Program-made: the position numbers and the translations under genes | Shown here: piece after piece, positions 10,101-55,463 of the stretch | Layout: every line of letters begins with the position of its first letter | Position numbering within the stretch: the first letter of the stretch is position 1 | Notes under the pieces: model-generated | What the model saw: the letters and a program-made list of their open reading frames with translations, nothing else | What the model was told of the DNA's origin: nothing | Database searches by the model: none | NCBI GenBank assembly: GCA_038049695.1 | Contig: CP142451.1 | Span: 128,856,001-128,920,000, forward strand | Length of the DNA stretch: 64,000 nucleotides | Direction of reading: 5' to 3' | From: Cinnamomum chago | Lineage: Eukaryota > Streptophyta > Magnoliopsida > Laurales > Lauraceae

Positions 10101-10791
10101 GTCTGACCCTGGTTGATTTTTAAAACAGTTGTTTTTGCACAAGGCTGTTTCTGCCAGCTTACTAGGCACATTTCTGATAGTTTTCTGCATTACCATAATA
10201 ACCACCTGTATCTTTGTGGAAACTGGTGGACCAATCTTTGCATCCATCTGGTTTCTTTAAGGCAGCTAAATGGGATTTGTATGACAACTTCTGAAGGGAT
10301 ACAAGAACATCATGGAGAATTGCTGGGAGACCACAAAGGTGCTGAGAGAAGGCATCGAGAAGACAGGTCAATTTGATATCGTTTCTAAGGATGTGGGAGT
10401 GCCCCTGGTAGCATTCTCTCTCAAAGACACCAGCCAGCACAGTGTGTTTGAGATATCAGAGTCTCTGAGGCGGTTTGGATGGATTGTCCCAGCATACACT
10501 ATGCCTGCTGATGCTGAACACATTACCGTTCTTCGTGTGGTGATCCGAGAGGATTTCAGCAGGACCCTGGCGGAGCGTCTTATTTCAGACATTGTGAAGG
10601 TCTTGAAAGATATGGATGCACTACCACCTCGGGCGACAAAGGTCGCCCGTGTCACAGCTGAGATGGCTGGCAAGGAGGCTGTTGATGGAGATGGAGTGGT
10701 GATTAAGAAGAAGAGTGAGAGAGAGACCCAGCTGGAGGTCACTACTCGGTGGAGGAGGCTTGTTGAACACAGGAAGACAGGGGTGTGCTAG
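4162..10791 (+). CDS. GAD: Glutamate decarboxylase GAD-A, complete, seven exons
   Basis: This PLP enzyme converts glutamate to GABA and CO2 in the cytosol (GABA shunt). The exons are 4162-4247, 6269-6473, 7915-8115, 8198-8412, 9261-9514, 9678-9730 and 10297-10791. They join in frame to 502 codons plus TAG, the normal plant GAD length. The N-terminus is MVVTTTLSE, then the conserved STFASRYVR. The PLP lysine is K277 in SGHKYG, and the active-site region HVDAASGG is at 242-249. The C-terminus has a tryptophan (W490) followed by basic residues and ends TGVC, the calmodulin-binding autoinhibitory tail of plant GADs. Intron 2 begins with GC instead of GT. Intron 1 holds an antisense LINE fragment. 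All family-conserved residues I checked are intact, unlike GAD-B and GAD-C, so this is probably the working copy. Confidence 0.95.
4640..6110 (-). mobile_element. LINE (non-LTR retrotransposon) 3' fragment in GAD-A intron 1, antisense
   Basis: On the minus strand, broken reading frames give the C-terminal end of a plant L1-type reverse transcriptase. [17 protein letters not shown] with [10 protein letters not shown] is near 6000-6110. The zinc-knuckle (zf-RVT) region with [12 protein letters not shown] is at about 5713-5919. [19 protein letters not shown], the start of the RNase H domain, is near 4690-4760. Stops and frameshifts interrupt it. The 5' part, with the endonuclease and RT catalytic core, is missing. 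The corresponding introns of GAD-B and GAD-C lack it, so it inserted in the A lineage after the A/B split or was lost from B. Confidence 0.75.
6474..6475 (+). promoter_or_regulatory. Non-canonical GC splice donor, GAD-A intron 2
   Basis: Exon 2 must end at CTC CAG (6473) because exon 3 starts with the codons for NRCVNM. The intron therefore starts gcatct rather than gt. GAD-B (24139) and GAD-C (46632) have the same gcatct. Confidence 0.75.
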
Positions 10792-27300: not shown

Positions 27301-28989
27301 GTTTTTGGCAGGTGGGATACACCAATTCATGTAGATGCAGCAAGCGGCGGGTTTATTGCCCCTTTCCTTTACCCGAGGCTGGAATGGGATTTCCGGTTGC
27401 CATTGGTGAAGAGCATCAATGTCAGCGGACACAAGTACGGCCTTGTTTATGCAGGAGTGGGTTGGGTTGTATGGAGGAGTAAAGAGGATTTGCCGGAGGA
27501 GCTCATCTTCCATATCAACTATCTAGGGGCTGATCAGCCCACCTTCACTCTCAATTTCTCTAAAGGTAATTGCACTAGCAATGGTATAGCATGAGACCCA
27601 GGATTCAGATTTCTGCACCCTTATACTATTACATGGCATCCTATTTCAACAGACCTGCTTTATTATTGTTAGCTCCTAAGATACATGTCAGAGGGAGATG
27701 ATGACTTAAGTTTTGGGTCTGCAGGCTCCAGTAATATAATCACACAATACTATCAGTTCATACGTTTAGGCTTTGAGGTAAGATGATGATTTGATCATTC
27801 TAACAGTGATAATGTACAGGATTGATTGTGTATAAACCAAAAACCTCTACCATCCAATTGGTATACCTCTGAGGTGGCCACAACATGCAGCTTAAGTGTT
27901 CATGAATCATGACTCTTACCACTGGATCTTTTCTCTACAACCGTGCCAGTCCAAAATGTCAGTGACCTAAAAAATCTAGACAAATGTGGAGCATATTGTG
28001 TTTGTCAGCTGCCACTCACGTATGAGTGTGCAGGACCACCGATGCTGCTGCTGATTTTTGGTGTATAGTTCCATATCATTGTTTTAAGAATTGAAACTTG
28101 GATTCAACTCAAAATCCTGTAGAGTGGAGTTGACTCGGGCAAGTTGGTGTCTGACGCTGGTTGATTTTTAAAACAGTTGTTTTTGCACAAGACTGGTTCC
28201 GCTAGCTTACTAGACACTTTCTGATAGTTTTCTGTATTACCATAGCCACCTGCATCTTTATGGAAGCTGCACCATTTTATTTTATTTTATTTTTTTCTCT
28301 TACTGGACAGAAGTTGTACTTTCAACCTGAAGGCCCAGGGATCATATGTGATACTTTGGTGTCAACACCACTCAACCATGAGAGTGTTGGCTGTGGAAGC
28401 TTTACTTTGGTACCATTTGTTGTGTACTTGTAGCTGGTCCACACCCATCTTTGCATCTACTTGCTGTCTTTAAGGCAACTAAATGGGATTTGTATTACAA
28501 CTTCTGAAGGGATACAAGGACATCATGGAGAACACAAGGGTGCTGAGAGAAGGAATAGAGAAGACAGGTCAATTCGATATCGTTTCTAAGGATGTGGGAG
28601 TGCCCCTGGTAGCATTCTCTCTCAAAGACAGCAGCCAGCACAGTGTCTTTGAGATCTCAGAGTCTTTGAGGTGGTTCGGATGGATTGTCCCAGCTTACAC
28701 AATGCCTGCTGATGCTGAACACATTGCCGTTCTTCGTGTTGTGATCCGAGAGGACTTCAGCAGGAGCCTGGCGGAGCGTCTTGTTTCAGACATGGTGAAG
28801 GTCTTGAAAGACATGGATGCACTGCCACCTCAGGCGACAAAGGTAGCTAATTTCACAGCTGAGGTGGTCCGCAAAGAGCGTGTTGAGGGAGATGGAGTGG
28901 TGATTAAGAAGAGCGTGATAGAGACCCAGGAGGAGATCACATCTTACTGGAAGAGGCATGTTGAACGCAAGAAGACGGGCGTCTGCTAG
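15352..28989 (+). CDS. GAD: Glutamate decarboxylase GAD-B, open frame but probably impaired
   Basis: The exons are 15352-15437, 23934-24138, 25950-26150, 26269-26483, 27312-27565, 27725-27777 and 28510-28989, giving 497 codons plus TAG. The PLP lysine (SGHKYG) and a full calmodulin-binding tail (W485, then [12 protein letters not shown]) are kept. Several changes at conserved positions stand out against GAD-A: P56S, R99C, F174S, G211V and E219K. Exon 7 lacks 12 bp (four residues) between two ATGGAGAAC repeats still present in GAD-C. The donor of intron 3 is gc where GAD-A and GAD-C have gt. Intron 1 contains the complete Copia element, intron 2 an antisense PADRE pseudogene, and intron 6 a candidate SINE. 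The promoter carries a solo LTR. It may be weakly expressed or decaying. Confidence 0.85.
15610..16801 (+). repeat. 5' LTR of the Copia element
   Basis: It starts TGTTGATCAT and ends GGGGTCAACA, 1192 bp, the same length as the 3' LTR. It contains an internal near-tandem repeat (gtggctgtac...gattgggagaaggagg at about 15918-15968 and 15991-16042). Confidence 0.96.
16804..16815 (+). promoter_or_regulatory. Primer-binding site of the Copia element
   Basis: TGGTATCAGAGC starts two bases after the 5' LTR. It is the usual plant retrotransposon match to the 3' end of initiator methionine tRNA, where minus-strand DNA synthesis begins. Confidence 0.9.
16844..21847 (+). CDS. Copia gag-pol polyprotein, 1667 residues, uninterrupted
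   Basis: A single frame carries all Copia domains in order. First comes a gag of the UBN2 type (about 20-230) with a CCHC zinc knuckle at 263-276. An acidic, Lys/Glu-rich coiled-coil region follows (about 330-460), then two further CCHC knuckles at 535-548 and 573-586. The aspartic protease has DSG at D665. The integrase has a zinc-binding start (H792 in LWHRRLGH) and catalytic D856, D919 and E955 (spacing 62 and 35). The reverse transcriptase has YVDD at 1351-1354. The RNase H has YSDADWAG around D1515 and STAEAEY after it. Integrase before RT defines Copia (Ty1). A second possible start (MASGEGF) lies eight codons in. Three zinc knuckles are more than the usual one. No stop or frameshift is present. 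Confidence 0.96.
21973..22052 (+). repeat. Tandem 40-bp repeat before the Copia 3' LTR
   Basis: Two copies with a period of 40 bp (21973-22012 and 22013-22052) each contain tcagggggagttc. They lie between the gag-pol stop and the polypurine tract. Further GGGGGAG cores occur near 21863, 21928 and 22085. Confidence 0.85.
22082..22091 (+). promoter_or_regulatory. Polypurine tract of the Copia element
   Basis: AAAGGGGGAG lies just before the 3' LTR start (22094) and is the expected primer for plus-strand DNA synthesis. Confidence 0.85.
22094..23285 (+). repeat. 3' LTR of the Copia element
   Basis: It is 1192 bp, offset 6484 from the 5' LTR, with no difference seen by eye. It is followed directly by the AGGAG target duplication. 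Confidence 0.96.
24139..24140 (+). promoter_or_regulatory. GC splice donor, GAD-B intron 2
   Basis: Exon 2 ends CTCCAG and the intron starts gcatct, as in GAD-A and GAD-C. Confidence 0.7.
24813..25260 (-). pseudogene. Antisense PADRE/DUF4228-family gene nested in GAD-B intron 2, frameshifted
   Basis: The minus strand reads [16 protein letters not shown] and later [18 protein letters not shown] from 25260 downward. This is the N-terminal part of plant PADRE (DUF4228) proteins, which are small stress- and pathogen-responsive proteins. In another frame it continues [24 protein letters not shown] and [10 protein letters not shown] to a stop at 24813, the family's C-terminal part. The two halves are out of frame near 25010, and no ATG is found where the usual MGN start should be (the sequence there reads AACAGGAAC). 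A TATA-like TTTAAATA lies about 190 bp upstream on the minus strand (near 25445). GAD-A intron 2 lacks the gene. Family assignment rests on remembered motif patterns. Confidence 0.65.
26151..26152 (+). promoter_or_regulatory. Altered splice donor (GC) of GAD-B intron 3
   Basis: GAD-A and GAD-C read CCAG then gtat. GAD-B reads CCAG then gcat. A single T-to-C change turns a GT donor into GC. Confidence 0.8.
28270..28431 (-). mobile_element. Candidate SINE in GAD-B intron 6
   Basis: This 162-bp insertion is absent from GAD-A and flanked by AGCTG (28265-28269 and 28432-28436). On the minus strand it ends in an A-rich tail (complement of the ttttatttta run). It contains ggttgagtgg and aggttgaaag, which resemble weak A and B boxes of a polymerase III promoter. 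The same insertion is in GAD-C (54733-54893). Confidence 0.45.
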
Positions 28990-30568
28990 TGTTCATCTGT
29001 TTTCTTCTGAATTGGAGCAGGTCAGTTGCACCTACAGGTGGTGGGCTACATGTTATGGTGATCAAAGATGGACCAATATTAAAAGGTAGGCCCATCATGT
29101 CAGTGGTCTGGACAGCTGCCTCAATTCCCGCAGTAGTGTATTCTTCAGTTGGCATAGCAGCTGTTTTGCCTATCAAGGAAATTATTATTCCTCTTTGGTG
29201 TGCTATATCTTGGATTGAATAAGATTATATGCATATAGATGTATGTATACTATGTTTGCCTAGGAACTCAATATATTTGAACATGCTTGGCATTTTGAAA
29301 TAATCTTTCTGATCTTTAGAAATTTAAATAATAAGGAATCGATGAAATGACAAAGTTTGTAAGTTGCCAAAATGCTAGTTTAAATTGGGTGAGAATTTTT
29401 GCCGTGTATGGGACTTTTTGGAGTATGTTTTAGAAGTGACTGACCTGATGATTCACTAAATGGTGCGATTGCTTGCTTTGTAGCAGATAGATCCTGATGC
29501 CCACTTGATGTGTTACAGATACATTTATGCATCTCAAAAGTGCTTGTGAGAGGAATTCATCAATGTTTGCTTGGAACCTATAAAAGCATCCATTTCAAGT
29601 CATAAGTGTACTATTATCAGTTTTACATGCCTTTTTTTTTTTTATTATTATCAATTTAGATGCTGTGATTCCTTGGAGAATTCGAATCCTCTCAAGGCTT
29701 TTGACCCACAGTGACCATGAGTGGATTAATCATGATGTGAGGTTGCCTGCCTTGGATGGGGACCCACGGTGACCATGAGTGGATTAATCACGATGTGGGG
29801 TTGCCTGCCTTAGATGGGGCGGGCACTACACACGTGAATGGCATGCATCCCACGGTGACAATTCTCACTTCTCAAGAGGATCTGGACTCTGCTTAGGAGA
29901 TCTGCTCTGAACTTACGAGGGCAAATCAGACCTTAAACAGATGATAACTGCATTTGTCCCAGAGAAGTCTGAAACGACACCAGTGTACAAATACTTAAAA
30001 GAGGAATAAGACAGAAAGCTGAAAGCTTTCTGGACCTGGTAAGTACCCAACTGGGAGGAAAACAGTAACATTGGAAACACTCAAGAAAGTGAAAGAATCG
30101 TAAGAGGTCGAGAGCCTCATCAAATTTGCACCGGAAATGTGTCCGGATGGGATCCAATGTTCGCAAAGGTCTCTTGGGTGTTTCCATCAGTTAATGGTGG
30201 GTGGGATTAGATTCATCTGGGTAGTAATTTTGATTTTTCTGGGCCACACTATGCTGGTGGGGTAAAACTAATCCCTATCTTTTATCAAAAGTGAAGCTTG
30301 TTATGTGATGCTCCTAGTAAGGTTGGTTTCTTTCCACAGAGGCCCATAGTGGTGGAAGTTTGTGACTAAGGGATTTATTGTCCTTTTGCATGCCAGTTTG
30401 CATGAAGTGGTAGACTTTCCCTCCACAAAGTATTAAACCTCCCAGCCTTAAGATGGTAGTTAGATATGCACAGTTCCAGCAAAGCAAGAAAACGTCCCCT
30501 CTTATTGGAAACAGGTTACATAAAAATATTCTGGTTGAAGTTTCAACACTACAATGAGAGGCTGCTTT
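28990..30568. other. Convergent intergenic region GAD-B / DCD-B
   Basis: The 3' ends of GAD-B and DCD-B face each other across about 1.6 kb. No gene is seen. A 58-bp tandem duplication lies at 29703-29818. The equivalent region of unit C (55464-56730) is shorter because of a 249-bp deletion and the lack of this duplication. Confidence 0.6.
29703..29818 (+). repeat. Two tandem copies of a 58-bp sequence
   Basis: gacccacagtgaccatgagt begins at 29703 and recurs as gacccacggtgaccatgagt at 29761. Unit C has a single copy (about 55923), so the duplication happened in unit B after the B/C split. Confidence 0.85.
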
Positions 30569-38597: not shown

Positions 38598-39641
38598 CCC
38601 GTTCTAGACGCCGACGGCCAACGAGGATTGTCAAAGTATGGTGGTTCGCGGGAGTAGTTGAATTTTATCAGTCTCAGAGCTCACTTCAAATGTACGGGCA
38701 CGTTTGTGTACGTGTAATTTTCGTGGAAATTGAAAATTGTCATATCAGTAAAATCTATGGGTTTCAAATTTTTTGGAAAATTTTTTCCGCCAAAAGTCAA
38801 AATTTTATGTTTTGTGCAAGAAGGTTTTTCTGGATGAATTAGTACTAATGTTGTTTGGTGAAGCTATGAATTTCTTTAGTGAAAACCACTTTTTAGTGAA
38901 AACTATTGGGTGGGTGGGTTGGTATGTGTGTGGGGTGGGTGAGGTTGGGAGGGGAAGAGGAAGAAAGAGGGTGGTTGGGTGGAATGAGGGTGAGAGAGAT
39001 TAAATTGGAGGGTCAGTTTTCCGTGGAAATGGACTTCTCATACCTCCCATAGGAAGTCTATTTCTATGTATAGAAAGGAAAAGGCTAACGTGGCGAAAAA
39101 ACATTTCCGCGAAAAACTGCCGCACCAAACACATGAAAAAGAAGTTTTTTGTAGAAAACTACAACATTTTCCACAGAAATAGGCTCCACAAACATGCCCT
39201 ACAGTGATATTGATGACCCAGCCCCAGATCAGCGACCTGAGTGAGGATGTCAAATGGGCCAAGGACTGTGGCACAGTCGGCGTTTCAGCACGGCACGAGA
39301 TGGGCCGACCTATCCACAACAGTTGACCCACCAGGCACAGCCCGTCTGGCCTGCCCAAGAGCTAGTTTTATTTTGAGTTTTACCCATTTCATTTGAATTT
39401 TTTTACTTTTCCTTTGTTGTAATTTGTAAATATACAAGTTTTTTATTCCTTTATATTTTTATTCTCTAAAAAGATTGTAAAGTTTTAAAGATAATCTTAT
39501 TTACAAACTTTCAAGAAGTTAAGATTCAAAATTCCAAATGGTTCTCTTTTCACTGGAGTAGGTCGAGTTTGACCGAATCACTTAAACATCTTTGTCATTC
39601 TCTGTATTTCTTATAATATTATAATGATACTACTGAGTGTT
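38598..39641. other. DCD-B upstream region and right end of duplication unit 1
   Basis: The DCD-B promoter should lie in the first few hundred bases. From about 38845 to 39205 there is a hairpin-prone block whose ends (atgttgtttggtgaagct and the complement of ggctccacaaacatgccct) resemble each other. It could be a degenerate hAT-type MITE, with weak support. After that the sequence is AT-rich with nothing recognisable. Confidence 0.45.
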
Positions 39642-39859
39642 GAGTTGACTCGGGCAATTTGGAGTCTGACCCTGGTTGATTTTTAAAACAGTTGTTTTTG
39701 CACAAGGCTGTTTCTGCTAGCTTACTAGGCACATTTCTGATGGTTTTCTGCATTACCATAATAACCACCTGTATCTTTGTGGAAACTGGTGGACCAATCT
39801 TTGCATCCATTTGGTTTCTTTAAGGCAGCTAAATGGGATTTGTATGACAACTTCTGAAG

Positions 39860-42646
39860 GGATACAAGAACATCATGGAGAATTGCTTGGAGACCACAAA
39901 GGTGCTGAGAGAAGGCATCGAGAAGACAGGTCAATTTGTGTTAGGCACCGTCCCGAGTTAATCCCGATTAACTCTAATTAATTGAGCTTACGACTAATTA
40001 AGCCGGTTTAATGATTAAATGAAGTTGAATTAGCCTAACTATGAGTTATTTAGGCTTAATGAAATAGTAACTATGGTTGTGAAATGAATTGAAAAGAATT
40101 AAATGGAAAATGAAGCTCAAATGAGCATATTGAGGACTTGTGTGTAAATACGGAATTATACGTATTTTATCGAATGCGGAAACTCTTGATACCAACATGT
40201 GTATCTCGACGAGTACGATAACTTTCATAAAAGGCTTGAATTGATTTGACGAATATTGGATCAAATGGGCCTTGAATTGACTCGAAATGTAAATGAGCAA
40301 GTGAATGGGGGGCTTAATGTAAAAAGTGCCCTTATATAAGAGAAATGAGCTCATTGAGTTCATCCACGTACAGTAACCCTAGGCAACTTTTCTTATTTTC
40401 ATTTCTTCCTTCGTTTCTCTTCTTTCGTGATTTCTTCTTCATCAAGAGTGAAGGTGAGTGGATGCAAGTGAAAGAGATTCATCTCCTTCCTCTTCTTGGC
40501 CGTCTTCTTGGGAGATCTTCTTGAGTTCTAAGCTTCAAAGAGTGGCTTTCATCTCAATCCAAGCTAAAAGAGGGGATTTGCTCTATCAAAGCTTCATTTG
40601 AGGCAAGTATATACATTTCTATGGTTTTAAGCTTTCATAGAGTTTGTATGAACTCATGGAGTTCAAAAGTGTGGATTTGGTTCAGGATTTCTGAAGCTCG
40701 AAAATGCGTTTCTGGGCGCATTTCGGCTAGCCGCGAGGCTAACCGCGAGCTAACCGCCAGAAAATCCGAATTTGGTGAGCTTCTGGAAAGCTAACCGCCA
40801 AAATTCGGTTAGCCGAAATTGGAATTTCGGCTAGCCGCGGGGTGACCGCCGAGCTGACCGAAATTGGTCAGAAATTCCTGTCAGAAAATCAGTTTCTGGA
40901 AAGCTAACTGCGTGCTGACCGAACCTAATTCGGCTAGCCGCCGGTGCATTTCGGCTAGCCGCCTGCACAGTCGCGGCTAACCGCCAGGTAGCCGCCGAGG
41001 TAGCCGAAAGTGACCAGTTTATTCGTAGTGAGGGAAATTTTGGCCAATCGCGAGGACCGTTAGGTCCGAGCGATTGGGGGACTCGATTCGAGTCCAGTGA
41101 GTTTTGGATTTTACGAGAATTGATATCGCTGATGAGTCAATTATGACTAATAGTAGTGTCTAACCTCCATATGTGTTAACTAGGGTTATTCTAATGCATA
41201 ATCATATAAGTAATATCATCAATCGTAATACTTGCATTAATAACCAACGTTACACTCCATGGTTGGTTCAAGGTTGGATTGAAAACTAGACTGAAATGAA
41301 TAGGAACTGTTATCAGATTTGGCATGGCACTACCTAGTGGTTTCCGAACTCAGTATGAAATTGAATTGAATGAAATGAGAAATGAATGAATTGATTATTC
41401 CTGCTGCAGCAGATGAGAATGGGGTGTTCCGGAGCCCGTGGTGACACCAGTGATCTCTGATCAAGACACTGGGAGATCCCACCTTTTTTGGACCGAAAGG
41501 TCATTGACTGCAAAGTCATTCATGGAAAAGCCATTAATAAAGGTTGAATCTAATGAATGAATGAATATGAATTGCTTCCTTTGGAAGATTAATGAATTGA
41601 ATTGGAGTTGGAACCATTGCTAGTGTAGTTGCCATCTTATGTTCATTGTTAATTATGTTTATTATGAATTGTCTAGAACTATTGTACAATGAATTGCTAG
41701 AAATTGTAAAGCTGTCATAGATATGTGTATACCTGTTGAACCGTCGTGTTCATGGTATTACTGATGATATTGCAGGCTCGTCTACCCGTGCCGGTCCCTC
41801 AGAGACCATACCGGCAGCGGAGGAGGCCCGTGCGCTACCTCCAGGAGGTCTAGCGGAGTGGACGTGATTTGAGAGAAGAAAACATGGAATCTTTTGGAAA
41901 CTTTGTGGAAATTATTTTGTAGAATCATTTTGGTATTGTAAGTAATGCAGATGTTATACCCTGCATTGTATTGTAAATATGCAGTGGTTGATATTAGGTG
42001 TATGAAACAATATCGATGAACTTTACAGTTCAAAAGTATGTATATGATTCATTTTGTTTAAATCATTGTCAATGTATATTCTTGTATATTCCGCACTGTA
42101 CATTGACAGGTTCGTATGTAAGATCCCTTGTAGGCTTCGTTGTAACTTCGGTTAAACGGGGTTTACGGGAGTAAGTATGTATTATCGCGACCCGGGGATT
42201 AACCCCTAATGACTCTGATCTCGGGGCCGGGTCGTGACAATTTGATATCGTTTCTAAGGATGTGGGAGTGCCCCTGGTAGCATTCTCTCTCAAAGACACC
42301 AGCCATCACAGTGTCTTTGAGATATCAGAGTCTCTGAGGCGGTTTGGATGGATTGTCCCAGCATACACTATGCCTGCTGATGCTGAACACATTGCCGTTC
42401 TTCGTGTGGTGATCCGAGAGGACTTCAGCAGGACCCTGGCGGAGCGTCTTATTTCAGACATTGTGAAGGTCTTGAAAGAGATGGATGCACTACCACCTCG
42501 GGCGACCCACAGCTGAGATGGCTGGCAAGGAGGCTGTTGATGGAGATGGAGTGGTGATTAAGAAGAAGAGTGAGAGAGAGACCCAGCTGGAGGTCACTAC
42601 TCGGTGGAGGAGGTTTGTTGAACACAGGAAGACAAGGGTGTGCTAG
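39860..42646 (+). pseudogene. GAD-D: last exon only, split by a solo LTR and frameshifted
   Basis: The copy begins in intron 6 at the duplication junction (39642) and has exon 7 from 39860. A 2.3-kb solo LTR interrupts it after the codons for EKTGQF (39939-42239), and the rest resumes at 42240-42646. Against GAD-A, a net loss of 13 bp near 42507 (gggcgacccacagctgag) shifts the frame, which then stops at 42516. Exons 1-6 are absent. It is most similar to GAD-A, as expected from the duplication. Confidence 0.92.
39939..42239 (-). mobile_element. Solo LTR (2301 bp) inside GAD-D exon 7, family LTR-X, reverse orientation
   Basis: It begins TGTTAGGC and ends GGGTCGTGACA, the reverse complement of the ends of the element at 12905-15091. 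The duplication ATTTG flanks it (39934-39938 and 42240-42244), and GAD-A has the uninterrupted exon. Its GC-rich core (40720-41010) is filled with ggctagccgc and gctaaccgcc repeats, unlike the ggtcgacc-type core of the other copy. Confidence 0.87.
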
Positions 42647-43126
42647 TTGTTGGAATATAGGTGGGCCTTCCAGACAGGTTTAAAAAACTTTTGACCCACT
42701 TGATGCAGGGATCAATTGTCTAGAATGCAACAAACTCAATCCAGGATGCAATTCCTCAAAACTCATAGTCATGTACAGCAACATATACTATCTAAAAGAT
42801 AGAAATAAGAACATAAACATGCAAGTATGAAATCTACAGCATACAAGGATGTAGATATACCTTTGGAGCTTTGTTGTGCTCTTATGGAGGATTTGAGTTC
42901 TTTACTTTGATGATGAACAACTTCACAATCCAATTTAGAATCTTCAACTCCTTTTGATCTTCCACGCTATGTCCCGTATTAGATCTCTTTTATCAAGAAG
43001 ATGGTGGAATCCTCAAGAGAAAATCCTACTAATAACTCTAAGGAACTAAAGGTGAAAGAGAAGGAAACTTTTAGAAGAAGAAGACTTAGACAACTCTTGC
43101 ACAAGGGGGCTGAAAGTGCTCTATTT
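42647..43126. other. 480-bp unrelated segment replacing ~60 bp of GAD 3' region in unit D
   Basis: GAD-A reads from its stop codon through about 60 bp to ttatggtgatcaaag. In unit D those bases are replaced by a segment starting ttgttggaatataggtgggc. The start looks like a Copia-type LTR end (TGTTGGAATATAG), but there is no matching CA end or target duplication. It could be a truncated LTR or filler DNA at a break. Confidence 0.5.
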
Positions 43127-43908
43127 GTTATGGTGATCAAAGATGCAACCAAAATTATAAAGTGGCCCATCATGTCAGTGGTCTGGATAGCTGACTCAAT
43201 TCCCGCAGTGGTGTATCCTGTGGTTGACATAATGTTTTCCTAGGTTGGAACAATAATACTATTATTCGTCTTTGGTATGCTATATTTTTGGATTGAATGA
43301 TATTATATGGATATGGATGTATGCATTTTACATTTGCTTAGGAACTCGTTATATTTGAACATGCTTGGCACTTTGAAATAATCCCTCTGATCTTTCCCTA
43401 GTTATGATCTTATTATATAAAGAAGATATGAAAATGATGCGGTTTGTAAGTTGCCAAAATGCCAGTTTGAAGTGTGTTTGTAGTTACGCTGTGTATGGGA
43501 TTTCTGGAGTACATGTTTCCAAAGTGACTGACCTGATGATTCACCTAAATGGTGCAATCGCTGACAGATATTGAGGCCCCACTCGATGTATGGTCCAGAT
43601 ACATTTATGTTTCTCAGAAGTTTGAAAGAGGGAATTCATCAATAGATTTTCTTGGAACCTATTTAAAGCAACCATTTCAAGAATATAGTTTGTGTACTAT
43701 TTTCATTTTTATATGCATTGTTTCCTTCATTAATTTAAGATGTGCTGATTCCTTGATGATGCTAGGAAGAGTATGAGACGTTAAAATCTGCGGAGAAATT
43801 ACAGGGCATCTCACAAATCAAAACAGATGTATGTGATTACTGCAATTGTCCCAGAGAATTCATCTGGTTGATGTTTCATTAATATAACTACAATGAGAGG
43901 CTGCTTTT
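43127..43908. other. Region between GAD-D and the DCD-D remnant
   Basis: It is nearly identical to 10855-11635 of unit A. No gene is seen. Confidence 0.55.
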
Positions 43909-44895
43909 CTGAAACATTTTTCCTGTGTACCATCCTTTCGTGGGACAGATTCATCATTTGCGGCCAGACAGCTGCCCGCAATTGTAGCCATCTGATCTGT
44001 TTTGTCAAAAAGCCTGAGAGGGCCTCCTGTGTGTATGAACTTGAAGAGAACTTTTCTTCCGTCCCATTTATTAATTTTGGATTTTCAGCCATGTCCTTCA
44101 GCAGGCCAAAGGCAGCCTTTACACTGCAAGAATGCACAAGATGCAAGTGGTTATGGTATTAAAAGAATGCTTGGAATGGTGCTGACTGGACAAACCGGGC
44201 TAAATAGGTATGATATATCCATGCTAGGAGGTTTAAACAGGTCTAACCATGTTGATACTGAGGCACATCTTGATATGAGAGATAGCCCTCTTGACCTCCA
44301 AGGACCAGGACACTGATAAAAAAAAAAAAAAAGGATAAGGAGCAAGACACGGGGTCAAGAACACCACCTATTGCTGTGCCTATTTCTTTCACAAATTTAA
44401 GTCCCTCAATGGCGTTCATGGCATAGCCTAAGAAGCCCTTCGCCTGCATTACAAAGAACAGCTGGTTAGCGTGTGCCCTTAGCCTGATAATAGGGCCTGT
44501 TTGTTTAGTCCATATTGGATCCCTGGAAAAAGGAAATTATAAATAATACCTTTCTATCAAAGGGGCTAAAATTGCACATAAACATGAAGATCCACAAATG
44601 ACCAAGAACTAGTCTCTCCTTTGAGATGAAATGATTACCTAGTCATACCCTACTAAATCAAATCCCTTTTAAAAAAGTAGGGTCCTAGCTACATCTTCCA
44701 TCTTATATCATTCACTCCTCGCCTCCTAAACGTATTTTACCTTGAACTCCTAGAAATTCAATATTGAGCAAAACAAATTGGCCCTTAGTTTTTATGTGGC
44801 AGTTTTACGCACCATAAATAGCCTATCATTTTAGAAATAGTCAAGCTATCACAAAAGGTGCATCCTACAACTTGTCCTCAAGAGGATAAGATATC
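43909..44895 (-). pseudogene. DCD-D: two-exon 3' remnant, sister of DCD-A
   Basis: This has the same structure as the DCD-A remnant: a frameshifted last exon (43909-44123, [16 protein letters not shown] then out of frame) and a penultimate exon (about 44345-44443, AKGFLGYAMNAIEGLKFVK). It is followed by intron 8 sequence that stops at about 44895. It was copied as a pseudogene by the second duplication. It has a longer A-run (44318-44332) than DCD-A. Confidence 0.85.
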
Positions 44896-45192
44896 TAACC
44901 CCAAGGGGTAGCTTAGTTGACTTAAAACTATCATACTGGGGCTACTGGGGTGTTTACCCGACTTCCCTATGGGCCCTCCTAAATGACACATACTTCCACC
45001 TTTTAACTTACTTAACCATAGTTCCACTTTCCTTGTCAGCCTTTGTTCTTTCTTGGCAAGATGAGTATAGTGATTGTAACATCCATTTAGCACAAGGTTT
45101 GAGGAGTTTATGAGTGATACAATCACAATCCTAACGGTTAGGATCCTCCCATCCCCATATCAGCAAGACAGTAACCAACCATCTATGTTCCT
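44896..45192. promoter_or_regulatory. GAD-C upstream region (unfilled by the solo LTR)
   Basis: It matches the GAD-B upstream region but lacks the 2.2-kb LTR: gacagtaaccaaccatc is continuous at about 45168. The ggatcctcccatcccc block is conserved in all three GAD promoters. Confidence 0.55.
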
Positions 45193-45526: not shown

Positions 45527-48500
45527 ATGGTGGTGACGACGACGTTGCCAGATGCTGACCACTTAGTCCACTACACTTTTGCCTCCAGATACGTCCGTAC
45601 TCCTCTCCCCAGGTTGGTACGTAATATGTAGTTTCATTGCATGCATCTTTTCAGATATAGACTGTGTCGGATGATCAGATGATCATAACTAAAACGTTTA
45701 TATGATCTCTTCACCTATATATGTTATTATGATTTGGATGGTTGGTTTGATTGATGAGATGTGGGTGGGCCATGGCCGAAGGAGTTGAAGGCTTGGGCTA
45801 CTATAGCCATCAGATGAGTGGATGCAAGTGGAAATTCGTTCCATCTAGACCATGCATTTGCTTTCTTTCAGATCTTGTTTTATTGCAACATGGTCATTGA
45901 ACTTCTATTTTTGTAATAAAGTTCTTAACCATCGCTTCTAGTCGATTGCACTTGTTAAGTGGTATCAATCAGATATCAAACTCTATTAAATTTCAAAATG
46001 TTTACATATAAATCACCTGAAAACAATGAGAATGAAGATTGAGTTTTGTTTTCTTTTACTTTAACCATTCCAAAAAATGTTATTTTAATCTTTTGAACTT
46101 TCCATGGACCAATATGCCAATGCTTAAAGGTTTCTGCTTGGCTGACACTGTGACACAGATCCTGAAACTGTGTTTTATAATCAGTTTTGACGAGAGAACA
46201 TGGATAGTGTGACAAGTGAACCAATGTTCCCTTGGTTGTTCATTATTTTCCAGGGGAGAAAAGTGGGGTTTGAACTGTCTATCATTGTGGATTTGGTCCA
46301 TGGCTCATCCATGGTATTTTGATGGGTGCACATGTACAAGTGTGGAAAGCAGCCACTCAGACATTCCAGATAATTTTCGCATTTTGGTGCCTTGATTTCT
46401 ATGGTTTCCACTTGTGTTTTTTGCAGATTCAAGATCCCTGATAAATCGATTCCAAAGGAGGCAGCATATCAGATTATCAACGATGAGCTCATGCTGGATG
46501 GAAACCCAAGGCTGAACTTGGCATCTTTTGTCACCACATGGATGGAACCCGAATGCGATAAGCTCATCATGTCTTCTATTAACAAGAACTATGTTGACAT
46601 GGATGAATACCCTGTGACCACAGAGCTCCAGGCATCTATTCTATCTCTTATGGACTTACATTTAAATGAATATGGTAGATTTTAATTACATAAGAGTATA
46701 AATATGAAGTCTGTAGTTTGTAGACAATTGAACAGTGATTCAGTCAATAAGAAGATGGATGGACCCAGCTCTAGATAGACAAAGATCCTAGCCATCCAGT
46801 ATGACTTTAATTCCATTTGACATGGGTGGTTGCTATTGTTCTTTCTTAACCACTTGTTATCGGCTGCCAGTCATAGCCAATCTTCTTGTTACATTTCTTT
46901 GTTGCCCAACATTCAGCTCCACACAGCATGCTATTCTGACTATTGTACCATGAAAATGCCCCTCTAATTAAGGTGGCAATCAACACTTCATTGGCTTCTC
47001 TCGACTTCATCAGTTCATCACCATCTACTATTCCATTTGTGATCTCTGTTTTCTTTAGTTGCCCCCAGATTAATGTAATCTATCCCCGCCGCACTAAGTT
47101 TCTTCAGACAAAATTGACCCAACAGCACAGAGATAAATTACTTCTGTCCATATTGGTATCATGACACAAACAATTCACACAGCATATAATTCAAAAGACT
47201 AGTTGTAGATGTCTATATAAATTCAAATTCATTTCTTTCTGTTCTCTTACAGACCCCTACATAGGGGTAATTACAAGTTCAAGGTTAGATGGTGAAGAAA
47301 TAGTCCTGCCTTAAATGATATTCATTCCCTTCTGGTATGGTCTCTAGCTTTGGCCTCCAGCTCTCCGTGCAAGACACACCATCCACTGCTTCTATTCGAA
47401 CGCTTGCGAGCACATCCTCCATCGACATCTTCTTCGACGACAGCTCTTCAAGCTGTTGCTTTATGATAATCACCTTAATCCTTTTAGCTCCCATCTGCAG
47501 AACCTGCTCTGTTCTTTGGAGAACTCTCTTCAGCAGAAGAAACGGAAACATCAACTGGAAGTAGATAATAAACATGGCCAACCCTCAGCTCGTAATTTGG
47601 TGGGAGATGCTGCATCGCTCTCTGTGATACACCAACACCATAACCATCAAAATTCAGTAGAAGATCCTTTACGAAGATTGAAACCCGGTATTCTAGTATC
47701 TTTCCATCACTCTTCGCAACTCTTAGGACGTTTGTAACGCCCCAATTCCGGATACCGATATACTCGTTCGAATACCCGAAATTGGCGCGCTACTTCCCGG
47801 AAAATCCGAGAACTTCCAAGATCGTAGGCCGCAGTGAGGTCCAATTTAAAACTTTTTGAACCAAATAACATTCAATGGTTAAAACTTGCGGAAGCGTAAC
47901 ATTTAAATAGAGCGGAAGCAATAGGTATCATGTATATTAAAGGAAAGCAGAACCGTGGTCTAATTAAAATGATTCAATGTAAATTTAAAGTTATACATCT
48001 TTCATTCTACCCTTCTCACTACAAATGTCACTCAAAACCCAAAATAGCATAAACTCTCAAAACCCTGGAATGTACTCCTCGCCCTCCGGCTCGACATCCG
48101 CGTCGGCCGGGCCCCATGCGTACTCTCCGGCTACAGGTGCCTCCACGAGGGCTAATGCGTCGTCGGGAATCTCTGGGTCAAGGCCTAAGCACCATAGAAT
48201 GGGTCAGATCTAAACGATCTGGCAAGATGTAGCATACTACTAACATAGCATATATATATCAAAGGAATTAAAGACAGGTACATAATTTAAATGAATAACA
48301 AGGAAAGAGAACTAGGCAATCGTGCATTTAAATCATAAGGAACCAGTATAAAAGAAATCAACTAAACTACTACACAAGGTGGCACATTCACACGAGCTGG
48401 AATACCGCGGGATATTATGCCGCGGCCCTCCCATACTGAACACAGTCGCGGTGGGGAATCTAACCAGGGAATAACTAATCCCGAATATCACTCATCAACT

Positions 48501-51500
48501 CATCATCTCATCACTCCAGATCGGCACGGCATGACACCTTGCCGTCTTAACCACACAGCTCATCATGATAGCTTCACCATACTCAACTAGCTCCTACCGG
48601 GGATGATCAGTCCACCGGCTGAGCTTAAATCAACCGAGTGAATGTTCATGCCGACTCGAGAATAACTCTAAGGTCTGTGTCTGTCTAGGCTTTGCCTTGC
48701 GTGAACAAGGTCCTAACAATACCTCTATAAGGTCCACACATCTCAATTCAGTCCCTGGATCTCATTCAAGATCCAGGCCCACTCGTTGGATCCATACCAA
48801 GGCCCATCAGTACATGGCCTGGTCTAAAACCGTCCAAACGAGGCAACTAATCCATCTACTACTGACAAACAGTTCCATTATAATCCATACAACTTAACAG
48901 TCCCATAGAAACTATCTCTTCAAGCTAAAGGGTTCACATCACCACACTTAGGCCCAATAAGGGCCCGCCTAGACACAGACACGGGTCAATGATCTCCGGA
49001 TTACACAATCGGGTCACCTCTAGAAACCCTAGGTTCAGGTCTTCCAATTATAATTAATTAACAGTAAACAGCTAATCTAAAGATCTAAGAATGACAGAGT
49101 AATAATAATGAAGTATAAACTTCAATCAGAGAATCAACGGGAAAAGCAACGGTCCAATCCTAGGTAAATGGGCCACTTTAGGTCCGGGTCTATCTCCGGT
49201 AATTCGATCTCTAAACGATGTCATTAATGCCGTAAAATATTGTATTTGGTGCTTAGTTAGTTAATGGCATCTATGACAACTCTTGGAGGTCGAATCATCT
49301 TAGATTATCAACCAAAACTCTAAACAGTGGTCCCCGCGAGTCAAGGTTGAGCCACACCGTTGACTCGGGCTTATGACACTGGTAAATGCTCATTTGGATG
49401 GTCAATGGGCCCCCACAACTGATCATATCTCCTAAGTGTTGAAAACTGGAACAATCAGGGTTTTCCAGGTGAACCTGACGGGTTGTGAGCTCGGTTGATT
49501 TCCTGGCCTGGAAGATCAACCGAGTGCACTGGCTAATCTAAATCAGGCTTCCTGGACAACTCAATTCACTTCTATAGGCTTACAGCGTGTCCGGTCAAAC
49601 AACCTGGCCGGGATGATTGACCGCATACTCTGGAAACCTTAGAAAGATTGATGATCCAGCTTTAAACACTTTCGAAATATTAATTCTAAGTTTCAGGTTG
49701 ATTTGGGCGCAAACAGTCTGAGTTTCGGTGAAAACCAACTTTCAGTCATTTCTAGTGAAAACCATGTAAACGGGTCAACCTGGGCTAAGCCGGGTCAACC
49801 AAACTGATTAAAATGGGTTTTCCACAAGAATATGGCTGATGGCCAATTTTCCATCAAAACCTAGTTGTCTCGATCGACTAGGATGGGTCCCAGTCGACCC
49901 AGACAACAGGAACTCAGACTGCAGAACACAGCTAACTGGGAGCTCTGTTTTTCCATTTTTCAGTGTTCTCGGTCGACTGAGAGGGGTCTCGGTCGACCTA
50001 GAACACTGTCGGGCGAGTCCTCGGGCGTGTCAGGGAAATTCTGCAGAAAATAACTGAGGCTTGATTTTTTGGAAACTGCAGTGTTCTCGGTCGACCTAGA
50101 GGGGGGTCTCGGTCGACCTAGAACACTGAAAACACTATTCCTGCAGATTTCTGCAACTTTTCCGTTTCAGCTCCGTTTTCGCCCAAATCACTTCCAATCA
50201 CTTCCAAACTTCCCCAAACCACTTCTAATCAATAAATAACTTCATAAACCATCCATTAAACACCTTTTGGCCCACTGATCTTCCAAATGGGGGGTGAAAA
50301 CCCCCATCCATCAGTGACCTTTCCATCCAAACATACACAAACAAGCTCAGGTAGAAACTAAACCATAACAGAACATCAAATGAAATGGAAAACTACTGAA
50401 TCATGAACTAAAATACACATCCTAAGTTATGAGTATGATGCACTTGCCTCTTTAGTGTTTGAGAAGGTTGTAGAGAAGAAATAGAGCTAGAAATGTAAAT
50501 CCAGAACCCAATCCAGCTGAACAGAGGAGAGGAGAAGAAGAAGAAGATGATACCCCAGCTGCTGTAGTAGCAGCTCCCAGGTGATAGTAACAGCAGCAGC
50601 AGTAGTCCTTGGAGAGTTTTCAGCAGAGTAACAGTGGTCCAGAGAGAATTGAGAGAAGGAAGAAGGGGATATGAAGAGAGATGGCAGCTGCAGCCCCTTT
50701 ATGAAGAATTCCAGCACAACAATAACTCTCAGAGAAATTCCAGCAAAGTACAGATGAGAGAAATGAAGAGAAAGAAGAAGAAGATGATGTCACAGCAGCT
50801 CCAATTGGAAATTCCAGCAGAGTGGAACTAGCCCAGCAGAAATAATGAAGAAGAAGATGAGATGCAGCAGAGCTTCAAGAAGAAATTCCAGCAAAGTGAG
50901 GTGGTTCCAGCAGCTCCAAGATGATGTTTCCAGCAGAACAGAAATGAAGGAGAAGTAATAGAAGAAGGCAGCAACAGCCCAGGGGAAATTTCAGCAGAGT
51001 AACAGGGCTGGATGAGGGGGAATGAGAGAAATGTAAGAGAATGAAATGGTGGCTGCAGCAGTTGTTCTTCAAGATGGGTTTCCAGCAGAGGTTGATGAAG
51101 AAGAAGGAGGATTACAGCAGCTTCAAGATGAAGTTCCCAGCAACAGTGACAGTTGCAACCCTCAGCTCAAACGTAGGTGAAGGAGTTGCAAATGGAAGGA
51201 GGGGAAAACAGTTAATGGTGGTTTCCTTGGGATGGGAGCTGGAAGGTTTCTTGGGATGGGGGCTGCTTAGGGATTAGGGTTTATTGTAAATGTTAAGAGA
51301 GGTTTTATATAGGATTAGTGGAGTGATTAAAGACCATAGTACCCTTAGGGTTTAGTGGAATTAGGGCTAGGGTTTGAGGGTAGGCTAGTAATTAAGGAAG
51401 AAGCTTCTAGAGAGCACCTTTAGCTTACACTAACCCTCTTAATCAACTTAATTAAACTCTATTAGTAACTACTCTAGCTCTAAAAGCCTAAGATTAACAC

Positions 51501-54500
51501 AACACCCAATCAATTAAAAACACTAACCACTAAGCTAATCTAACTAACTTCTCTATCAAATCCTAATTAGCACAAATAAAGAGTAATTAACCAAGATTAA
51601 CAAAGGTTAGCAATAATTAGTAGTAATTAGCAAGGATTAGCGAAGATTAGCGAAGATTAGCGAAGATTAACATAATTAAACAATAATTAACATAAGTTAG
51701 AGTTAATTAGTTTATAAAATAGCCCTTAGAGGGCCCACCAAGGGTGGGACCTCACATCGTTCCTGTTACTTGAGAGAGAGAAAAAGACTCTTGACAAAGG
51801 GAAAGAGGCTAGAATTGCAAAGAGGAGGTTATGGGTTTAATAAAGGAAAGTGAGGAAGGAGAGGGAGAACCGTTTGTTGTTGGCAAATGAAGCATTTATT
51901 GGAGAAGAAAAATGTAGAGAGGGGTTTGAAGGAAGCTGAGGATATTTAAAGTCATATAAGGTTTAACAGATGAACTGTTGAACTGTTGTACTGAATCTCG
52001 TATAGAACTTTAGAGTTGCAGGATGCGGCAACAGTAACCATTTCCTTTTTTATTCATTGGCAATTCTATACTACCCTTATATGTTACCCTCTCTAACCCA
52101 TTTTCTTAAGATTCTGCTGCATACCTTCCTCTTCTAACCAGGGCTTAAATCTAGCTACCGAGCTCTCCTTAGAGGACTTTAATGTACCTTACCGGCTAAG
52201 CTAGCAGCTGGAGATGCAAAAGTAACTATTTCAGTGATCAAAATGTTCTTATCCCTCATTATATGAACCAACTGATTGTATCTGTTACCCAAGGTTCAGC
52301 TAACCAATTTAAATCGAACATCTCAAACTATATTCATTCTGTTTTCTGTTGGGAATGCCTTCATCAATGTAGTTTCCGTCACATACCCAATTTTTTCTCC
52401 AAACGACGAAATGTTTTATTTATTTTTATGTTTTTGTTTATGTACACCAGAATCGCTGTGTGAATATGATAGCCAAGCTCTTCAATGCTCCTATTGGTGA
52501 AGGTGAAACTGCAGTTGGCGTTGGAACAGTGGGGTCCTCTGAGGCAATTATGTTGGCAGGATTGGCATTCAAGAGAAAATGGCAGAACAAGCGGAAGGCT
52601 GAGGGGAAACCATATGACAAGCCAAACATAGTCACTGGTGCCAATGTCCAGGTATCATGCATTTAACCTCACACATTCTTCTTTTTTTTTATCAGTCTTA
52701 CACATTCTTCTGGATAAAGATATCATGCTTTTACTTTTCTCACTCATGATAATGGATGATTTTGGTGTAGGTCTGTTGGGAGAAGTTTGCAAGATATTTT
52801 GAAGTGGAGTTGAAGGAAGTAAAGTTGAGAGAGGGCTTTTATGTAATGGATCCTGTGAAAGCAGTGGAAATGGTTGATGAGAACACCATTTGCATTGCTG
52901 CCATCTTGGGTTCAAGGCTGACCGGAGAGTTCGAAGACGTTAAGCTTCTTAATCAACTTCTCATTGAAAAGAACAAGGAAAAAGGGTTGGACTCTCATTG
53001 AAAATAATGTTATTGTTAATACATGGACTAATATAAGTGATCCATCTACTCCCATTGGTGGAAGTGATGGGGGACATATATTCTCCGTTTGGGACCCATG
53101 CAGTAGCAGCAGTACATCATGGATCTCATGACACAAGCAAAATGGAAGTTGGAAGAGTGCTTTTGGTTGCCTGACTTTCGTTTTTCTGTAAGCAAATTGA
53201 TTGGTGTGGGGACCCAGCCTAGCTTGGTCTGCTAACCCAAATGGAAATTGGTAGGTCCCATCACTTTGGTTAGTCAGAGGCTACCCATGCTAGTAGTAAG
53301 AAGTCCTTAGATTCTGAAGCCCTTATTGAAATTTGATAGTTCACTTATTTATTGTTGCCAATTGTCATTCCATTACCTACTGAAACTTTATTTACCCCAT
53401 CACTCTGGTCGATCCATCTGCTGCCAGATGAGATTAGTCCACAGATTACCATCATCAGAGTGTCAAGACCCTACGAAAATGTGATACTCTCCTATGAAAC
53501 TGAAAATGGATGAAGTCGTTATCCATCACATTTAGCTATAGGAATCTGTGGACTATGTTTGACCAACAGTACATGAGTTTATTGAAAGCACATTATTAAC
53601 ATGACTGTATGTATCCATCTCATGGTGTTATACATACTCAATTCAACCATAGTGATGGGAGGAGTGGGGTCATGATGGGTAGAGACTATGAATTAATGGT
53701 TGAAATGAAGCATGATCATCCACTTTTTGGATGGATTTCAACGAAACAGGGTGTCTTAAAAAATTGTAGCTAATGATACTTTTACAGTTGACTCAAAACA
53801 TATGGTTTTTGGCAGGTGGGATACACCAATTCATGTAGATGCAGCAAGCAGCGGGTTTATTGCCCCTTTCCTTTACCCGAGGCTGGAATGGGATTTCCGG
53901 TTGCCATTGGTGAAGAGCATCAATGTCAGCGGACACAAGTACGGCCTTGTTTATGCAGGAGTGGGTTGGGTTGTATGGAGGAGTAAAGAGGATTTGCCGG
54001 AGGAGCTCATCTTCCATATCAACTATCTAGGGGCTGGTCAGCCCACCTTCACTCTCAATTTCTCTAAAGGTAAATGCACTAGCAATGGTATAGCATGAGA
54101 CCCAGGATTCAGATTTCTGCACCCTTATACTATTACATCCGGCATCCTATTTCAACAGACCTGCTTTATTATTGTTAGCTCCTAAGATACATGTCAGAGG
54201 GAGATGATGACTTAAGTTTTGGGTCTGCAGGCTCCAGTAATATAATCGCACAATACTATCTGTTCATACGTTTAGGCTTTGAGGTAAGATGATGATTTGA
54301 TCATTCTAACAGTGATAATGTACAGGATTGATTGTGTATAAACCAAAAACCTCTACCATCCAATTGGTATACCTCTGAGGTGGCCATAACATGCAGCTTA
54401 AGTGTTCATGAATCATGACTCTTACCACTGGATCTTTTCTCTACAACCGTGCCAGTCCAAAATGTCAGTGACCTAAAAAATCTAGACAAATGTCGAGCAT

Positions 54501-55463
54501 ATTGTGTTTGTCAGCTGCCACCCACGTATGAGTGTGCAGGACCACCGATGCTGCTGCTGATTTTTGGTGTATAGTTCCATGTCATTGTTTTAAGAATTGA
54601 AACTTGGATTCAACTCAAAATCCTGTAGAGTGGAGTTGACTCAGGCAAGTTGGTGTCTGACCCTGGTTGATTTTTAAAACAGTTGTTTTTGCACAAGACT
54701 GGTTCCGCTAGCTTACTAGACACTTTCAGCTGCACCATTTTATTTTATTTTATTTTTTGTCTTACTGGACAGAAGTTGTACTTTCAACCTGAAGGCCCAG
54801 GGATCATATGTGATACTTTGGTGTCAACACCACTCAACCATGAGAGTGTTGGCTGTGGAAGCTTTACTTTGGTACCATTTGTTGTGTACTTCTAGCTGGT
54901 CCACACCCATCTTTGCATCTACTTGCTGTCTTTAAGACAACTAAATGGGATTTGTATTACAACTTCTGAAGGGATACAAGGACATCATGGAGAACTGCAT
55001 GGAGAACACAAGGGTGCTGAGAGAAGGAATAGAGAAGACAGGTCAATTCGATATCGTTTCTAAGGATGTGGGAGTGCCCCTGGTAGTATTCTCTCTCAAA
55101 GACAGCAGCCAGCACAGTGTCTTTGAGATCTCACAGTCTTTGAGGTGGTTCGGATGGATTGTCCCAGCTTACACAATGCCTGCTGATGCTGAACACATTG
55201 CCGTTCTTCGTGTTGTGATCCGAGAGGACTTCAGCAGGAGCCTGGCGGAGCGTCTTGTTTCAGACATGGTGAAGGTCTTGAAAGACATGGATACACTGCC
55301 ACCTCAGGCGACAAAGGTAGCTAATTTCACAGCTGAGGTGGTCCGCAAAGAGCATGTTGAGGGAGATGGAGTGGTGATTAAGAAGAGCGTGATAGAGACC
55401 CAGGAGGAGATCACATCTTACTGGAAGAGGCATGTTGGATTGAATAAGATTATATGCATATAG
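45527..55463 (+). CDS. GAD: Glutamate decarboxylase GAD-C with truncated calmodulin-binding tail
   Basis: The exons are 45527-45612, 46427-46631, 52451-52651, 52771-52985, 53816-54069, 54231-54283 and 54972-55463, giving 501 codons plus TAG. Catalytic K277 (SGHKYG) is present. After the tryptophan W489 and KRHV, the normal ERKKTGVC end is replaced by GLNKIICI. A 249-bp deletion joins the tail to former downstream DNA and removes the native stop and 3' untranslated start. Conserved-site changes are T213R, G248S and D310G. GAD tails normally inhibit the enzyme until Ca2+-calmodulin binds, so the protein could be deregulated or inactive. Intron 2 holds an antisense PADRE pseudogene and a 4-kb LTR-like insertion. 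Confidence 0.85.
46632..46633 (+). promoter_or_regulatory. GC splice donor, GAD-C intron 2
   Basis: CTCCAG is followed by gcatct, as in the other copies. The intron is 5.8 kb here because of the LTR insertion. Confidence 0.7.
47285..47732 (-). pseudogene. Antisense PADRE/DUF4228-family pseudogene in GAD-C intron 2
   Basis: This is the sister of 24813-25260 with the same frame break and the same lack of an ATG. Its 5' end is separated from its upstream sequence by the 4-kb insertion starting at 47733. The C-terminal half differs from the unit B copy by very few residues. Confidence 0.65.
47733..51756. mobile_element. 4.0-kb LTR-like insertion (probable solo LTR) in GAD-C intron 2
   Basis: It starts TGTAACGCCCC and ends GGGACCTCACA (TG...CA). 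The flanks are ACGTT (47728-47732) and TCGTT (51757-51761), a 5-bp duplication with one mismatch. Unit B has the unfilled site (aggacgttcctg). No gag-pol frame, primer-binding site or second terminal copy is seen. It contains ggtcgacc-type palindromes at 49865-50130 and a region (50560-51140) rich in ttccagcagag variants. It may instead be a non-autonomous element. Confidence 0.7.
54733..54893 (-). mobile_element. Candidate SINE in GAD-C intron 6
   Basis: This is the same insertion as 28270-28431, flanked by AGCTG (54728-54732 and 54894-54898). About 45 bp just left of it are deleted relative to GAD-B. Confidence 0.45.

Follow-up and report, generated by a model that had tools for sequence, protein, structure and literature searches.

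A 249-bp deletion at the 3′ end of a tandem glutamate decarboxylase copy that is probably catalytically dead

Altered or absent calmodulin (CaM)-binding tails are already known in plant glutamate decarboxylases, or GADs (PMC9513066; also PMC3849887 and PMC4810369, in their available portions), and tandem duplication is given as the main route by which GADs have expanded in eudicots (PMC12750563, available portion). The 64-kb window analysed here (C1:128856001-128920000, the home genome being 1.06 Gb in 14 contigs) holds three GAD genes in tandem, one of which, GAD-C, ends differently from the other two. An earlier note on this DNA proposed that GAD-C had lost the end of its tail through a 249-bp deletion, and that it could be a natural deregulated allele, unless other substitutions kill the enzyme. 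The locus thus raises the question of whether such a tail would free a GAD from CaM control, and of whether GAD-C is still an enzyme that could be freed.

Tandem GAD copies in the window

The seven exons of GAD-A, GAD-B and GAD-C were found with the exon peptides of the C11 GAD (tblastn), after which splice sites and spliced translations were checked. All three genes lie on the plus strand and their spliced translations have open frames: GAD-A at 4162..10791, GAD-B at 15352..28989, with all seven exons located, and GAD-C at 45527..55463, whose seven exons have codons from about 45527, 46425, 52451, 52771, 53817, 54230 and 54972. The splice sites of GAD-C are those of GAD-A, and no premature stop or non-canonical splice site unique to C was found across its seven exons and spliced translation. 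With seven open exons and GAD-A-like splice sites, a full-length GAD-C protein is possible.

A fourth copy, A', which the earlier note did not include, occupies 39636..45175 on the plus strand. It is an A-like fragment beginning within intron 6, with blocks matching A at 94.8–98.4% identity, and its exon 7 is frameshifted and interrupted by a 2.3-kb insert (39939-42237) with CAATTTG on its flanks. Self-comparison of 104 kb containing no N showed that the stretch 10073-39617, running from inside GAD-A to past GAD-B, recurs at 39636-65281. This repeat accounts for the origin of A' and C or, less likely, reflects two haplotypes joined by the assembler.

The exon-7 query gave nine matches in the genome. 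Outside the window there are GADs on C1 and C11 (hereafter c1 and c11), whose tails are complete, and on C5 (c5). The c1 gene, encoded on the minus strand, lies ∼43 kb upstream of the window (C1:128808000-128816000); its exons 3, 4 and 5 form a single open frame, introns 3 and 4 being absent. The c5 gene (C5:66157500-66167400) has a diverged C-terminus and a tail without the conserved Trp, and is therefore probably CaM-independent; its first exon was not found in the exon search of the genome. By frame, splice sites and scored residues, GAD-A, c1 and c11 look intact.

Several further features of the locus were noted. Intron 2 starts with GC rather than GT in A (6474), B (24139) and C (46632), and also in c1 and c5, while in c11 it starts with GT. 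Intron 1 of GAD-B contains a ∼7.7-kb long-terminal-repeat element (15607-23286), with 1196-bp terminal repeats that are 99.92% identical and an open stretch of 1669 codons; the equivalent site in GAD-C is empty, so the element looks very young. A ∼2.2-kb insert (12905-15088), flanked by the 8-bp repeat ACAGCAAC, lies ∼260 bp before the start codon of GAD-B, with none upstream of GAD-C, and the insert splitting exon 7 of A' is related to it, in opposite orientation. Intron 2 of GAD-C holds a ∼4.0-kb insert (47733-51757) that is not in B, flanked by the 4-bp repeat CGTT and without a long open frame. A search of the 64-kb window for structured RNA gave no Rfam match above the gathering score.

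The deletion and the remaining tail

Nucleotide alignment of the B and C units stops at B 28963/C 55437 and restarts at B 29207/C 55432. GAD-B carries two TTG trinucleotides (28961-28963 and 29210-29212) spaced 249 bp apart, and the segment that includes both (28961..29212, plus strand) holds the ERKKTGVC codons, the stop codon (TAG, 28987-28989) and 3′ untranslated DNA. In GAD-C the two sides are joined at one TTG (55435..55437, plus strand), where 249 bp are missing. From the last base of the GGA codon, the frame then runs through former downstream DNA (55438..55463, plus strand), reading GLNKIICI up to a new stop (TAG, 55461-55463); the effect of the deletion is that the final eight residues of C are swapped for eight chance codons. 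The tails and TTG coordinates of the earlier note are exact.

Unit A, an outgroup at ∼80% identity (82 mismatches in 357 aligned columns), carries the segment and a matching tail. The difference is therefore a deletion in C, as the earlier note had it, and a gain of the segment by B is ruled out. When the genome was searched with B 28880-29400, six matches in four copies were obtained: B is complete, A almost so, A' is split in two, and C is matched by its two deletion flanks only. Restoration of the tail by splicing to a downstream copy was considered and rejected: the segment was not refound beside C, and the exon-7 tblastn search detects no tails in the window besides those of A, A' and B. 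As for how the deletion arose, a TTG direct repeat stood at both ends and one copy is left, a configuration that fits microhomology end joining without proving it. Microhomology of at least 3 bp was present in 7.8% of 200,000 random 249-bp deletions simulated in the same DNA, and the 3-bp TTG is weak evidence of mechanism.

The tail was placed in AtGAD1 numbering through alignment with 3hbx (AtGAD1) and 1nwd (the petunia GAD tail). GAD-C retains K474-K475, Glu at Trp-9 and Trp-5, W488, K489 and an Arg at 490 (WKR); R495 and K497 are gone, with a chance Lys at the 496 register. By the Trp number of petunia GAD, the Glu at Trp-9 and Trp-5 would be the pseudosubstrate pair. As many residues follow the Trp in C as in B, only the last eight being changed, so that the Lys pair and the central Trp are present and the terminal Lys/Arg cluster is reduced to one Lys. 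That cluster has a single Lys in GAD-A and c1 too (RKT), and two Lys are thus not universal in this genome. In a PDB search at E 10 the C tail found no chain, while the B tail gave matches to 3hbx (E 0.22) and 1nwd (E 0.85).

The two tail Glu are described as pseudosubstrates (PMC7076103, available portion), and removal of K496 or K497 in AtGAD1 abolishes CaM binding, as cited by the accessible text of the tea paper (PMC4810369). C has likely, though not certainly, lost CaM binding: according to the available part of PMC3849887, apple MdGAD2 is CaM-regulated although Lys497 is not conserved, and with a Lys at the 496 register, binding by C may persist. The autoinhibitory domain of ∼30–50 residues that is missing from deregulated GADs (as defined in the available part of PMC5539196) was not removed in C. 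The tail anatomy points to an enzyme that, were its core sound, would be released more weakly by CaM with autoinhibition kept, and would be locked rather than freed.

The catalytic core and the pattern of divergence

GAD-C matches the glutamate decarboxylase family TIGR01788 at 670.9 bits, against a cut-off of 380.4. To place its substitutions, I scored sites in the best 80 of at least 542 confirmed bacterial and archaeal loci. The PLP-binding Lys (SGHK) and the catalytic Asp (HVDAA) are kept in C, and K, H and D stand at those sites in 80/80 of these best 80 relatives. Two other core sites have changed. At site 213, where Thr is found in 80/80 of the best 80, GAD-C has Arg (codon AGG, 52915..52917, plus strand); at site 248, which is Gly in 79/80 of them and in A, B, c1 and c11, it has Ser (codon AGC, 53850..53852, plus strand). 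Thr at 213 and Gly at 248 are both present in five of the six GAD models of this genome, the exception being C.

Site 213 is the position of the catalytic Thr of Lactobacillus brevis GAD, in which Thr215 and Asp246 are named as active-site residues promoting decarboxylation (PMC7761890 and PMC7037312, reviews of lactic acid bacteria, in their available portions). The register agrees, since the spacing 215-246-279 in L. brevis matches 213-244-277 here (31 residues to the Asp, 64 to the PLP Lys), and alignment to E. coli GadB places E. coli Thr212 at site 213; the available part of PMC12961736 contains no mention of Thr212 or Asp243. With Arg in place of this Thr, GAD-C has probably lost all or nearly all glutamate decarboxylation, and the proviso of the earlier note, that other substitutions might kill the enzyme, is probably borne out. 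The remaining replacement sites of C include two that are more variable among the best 80 (310, Asp in 56/80; 377, Ala in 60/80) and one, 331, that is Asn in 80/80 and Gln in the other plant copies; sites 8, 229, 393, 446 and 466 of C were left out of the scoring.

GAD-B, the copy against which C was first compared, is itself damaged, a point beyond the earlier note. Codon comparison on the plus strand identified Arg99Cys (25953-25955), Phe174Ser (26296-26298) and Gly211Val (26407-26409). Among the same best 80 relatives, site 99 is Arg in 80/80 and site 211 is Gly in 79/80, and the predicted severity of Arg99Cys and Gly211Val equals that of the core changes of C. Other B sites vary in these 80: at 174, 54 have Trp and 26 have Phe; at 219, 58 have Glu and 21 have Asp; at 327, 40 have Ala; and at the site of Pro56Ser, Ser is found in 20/80. 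In addition, the exon 3 donor of GAD-B is GC (CAG|GCATCA, 26151-26152), in contrast to the GT of A, C and c11, and this likely harms B splicing, while exon 7 of B has a 12-bp in-frame deletion (four residues, within 28510-28570) that is not in A, C, c1 or c11. GAD-C is less damaged than B in two points, having the GT donor of exon 3 and the four residues lost from B, which counts against decay of C.

Before the tail, 22 codons differ between B and C. Four of these fall inside the 12-bp deletion of B, and the remaining 18 comprise 16 replacements and 2 silent changes. With A as outgroup, eight replacements and no silent change are clear by codon on the C lineage; Gly248Ser can be assigned to C from the residue (Gly in A, B, c1 and c11), and codon 466 is not polarisable. 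Five clear replacements and one probable fall on the B lineage, as do both silent changes. The dN/dS ratio is 0.17–0.19 from A to B or C, and 2.2 from B to C (dS against c1 and c11 was saturated and was not used). The 16:2 ratio has P = 0.22 under neutrality and P = 2e-5 under the omega of 0.18 seen from A to B or C, and by lineage this omega is rejected for C (8:0, P = 0.0006) and for B (6:2 with the probable replacement counted, P = 0.046). Positive selection on C was considered and set aside: a dN/dS of 2.2 with two silent changes is indistinguishable from neutral.

Coding sequence differs between B and C at 18/1467 positions, against 68/4704 (1.4%) for introns plus ∼0.5 kb of 3′ DNA (Fisher P = 0.61), the noncoding set consisting of eight colinear pieces from which the first part of intron 1 (6/165) was left out. 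The downstream flank (29761-38695 against 55923-64888, of which the last 0.9 kb is beyond the window) differs at 275/8881 positions, or 3.1%, twice the intron value. Flank divergence thus exceeds that of coding sequence (P = 1.8e-5) and of introns (P = 1.6e-9), and coding sequence matches the introns, not the flank. As the flank is more diverged than the gene bodies, gene conversion may have evened the latter, or mutation may be faster in the flank. The replacement-to-silent ratio is independent of this result. From small counts, then, purifying selection is not seen on the coding sequence of C, which has the 16:2 ratio and is as diverged as the introns, both less so than the flank.

Explanations for GAD-C and their bearing on known GADs

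Very likely, GAD-C arose recently by tandem duplication of the GAD-B unit, has been under little or no purifying selection, and is probably catalytically dead. The stretch from inside GAD-A to beyond GAD-B is present twice, yielding A' and C; C, and not B, is missing 249 bp at its 3′ end, with replacement of its last eight residues, and it also carries Thr213Arg and Gly248Ser, two changes at positions that barely vary among archaea, bacteria and plants. If Thr213Arg indeed kills or nearly kills activity, the tail change would be of little consequence. Had the core been sound, the partial tail would be expected to weaken CaM binding while the autoinhibitory half stays, so that the enzyme would be poorly activated, not constitutive. 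Decaying tandem gene duplicates typically show replacement-rich drift, changed invariant sites and damaged neighbour copies. GAD-C, a tandem copy, has the drift and the invariant-site changes, and its neighbours have insertions and a frameshift; it differs from such duplicates in nothing of kind, its frame still being open by chance. The pattern of the cluster is best explained if B and A' are decaying too. Base errors in the assembly may lie behind some of the changes in C.

A naturally deregulated GAD-C, in which tail loss lifts CaM control and gives constitutive GABA, has only the slimmest chance of being correct. The tail is truly changed, with the R495 and K497 positions gone, frame and splice sites are intact, and constitutive forms are described in the available parts of the sources for tomato GADs without 29–48 C-terminal residues (PMC5539196), rice OsGAD3 without the CaM-binding domain (PMC7076103) and a tea GAD without its C-terminal region (PMC4810369). 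However, only the last eight residues of C differ, the Lys pair, both pseudosubstrate Glu and the Trp remain, the core bears Thr213Arg and Gly248Ser, and there is no sign of purifying selection, so the description as natural and deregulated does not hold up. In tomato, complete removal of the tail raised GABA but defective near-full-size tails (Type 2b) lowered it, which its authors ascribe to an active site that is kept covered (PMC5539196, available portion). An active GAD that has lost CaM activation and is still autoinhibited, like rice OsGAD2 or tea CsGAD2, is improbable, if less so: the tail anatomy of C, the effect of K496 or K497 loss in AtGAD1 and the Type 2b lines (both from partial texts) would agree with it, but not the core lesions, and the case of MdGAD2 (partial text), together with the Lys at the 496 register, suggests that binding may persist.

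Nor do the remaining readings fare much better against decay of a duplicate. It is very improbable that B and C represent a single locus whose two haplotypes the assembler placed end to end, the deletion then marking an allele of GAD-B. The repeat does begin inside GAD-A intron 6 and span 39636 to 65281, and introns differing by only 1.4% could reflect heterozygosity, but A' and C lie in one gap-free sequence with no N in the surrounding 104 kb, the flank is 3.1% diverged, and there are insertions private to each copy. GAD-C is thus a tandem paralog of B in the assembly, and the word allele goes further than the data. There is a very slight chance that C is a selected pseudoenzyme or a changed enzyme, acting as part of mixed hexamers or with a different substrate; its open frame and the 16:2 replacement-to-silent ratio would suit this, but the ratio is not above neutral (P = 0.22) and B decays similarly. 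I regard as similarly slight the chance that GAD-C is an expressed pseudoenzyme which, with a dead site and a changed tail, would enter hexamers with GAD-A or other intact GADs and alter their CaM response as a regulatory subunit.

Set beside characterized GADs, GAD-C resembles AtGAD1 (3hbx) and petunia GAD (1nwd) in its full decarboxylase domain and in a C-terminal extension that bears the Lys pair, both Glu and the Trp, and differs from them in the replaced final eight residues, the missing R495 and K497, and the changes of the catalytic Thr to Arg and of a conserved Gly to Ser. It shares with the edited high-GABA tomato SlGAD2 and SlGAD3, and with rice OsGAD3, a 3′-end lesion that changes the tail, but those deregulated forms are without 29–48 residues or the CaM-binding domain. 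C stands closer to the Type 2b class of tomato (near-full-size defective tail, less GABA), a likeness drawn from the partial published description and not from Type 2b sequences. According to the accessible texts, the CaM-independent GADs of rice (OsGAD2), apple (MdGAD3) and tea (CsGAD2 and CsGAD3) are, like C, natural GADs with changed tail clusters; OsGAD2 and MdGAD3 have no Trp, whereas C retains it, and MdGAD3 and CsGAD2 are active, as is CsGAD3 once truncated, while C carries a core lesion. Among the literature matches listed, I found no GAD pseudogene or tail loss of this kind; the search was made without the species name, so the locus may already be described.

As a decaying duplicate, GAD-C is ordinary. 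It illustrates that a damaged CaM-binding tail in a genome does not suffice to make a high-GABA allele, and that the core needs checking; a tail damaged only in part is expected to lock a GAD, not to free it. An active GAD-C protein, if there were one, would offer a natural experiment on the tail residues that a plant GAD requires, and this would bear on GABA breeding.
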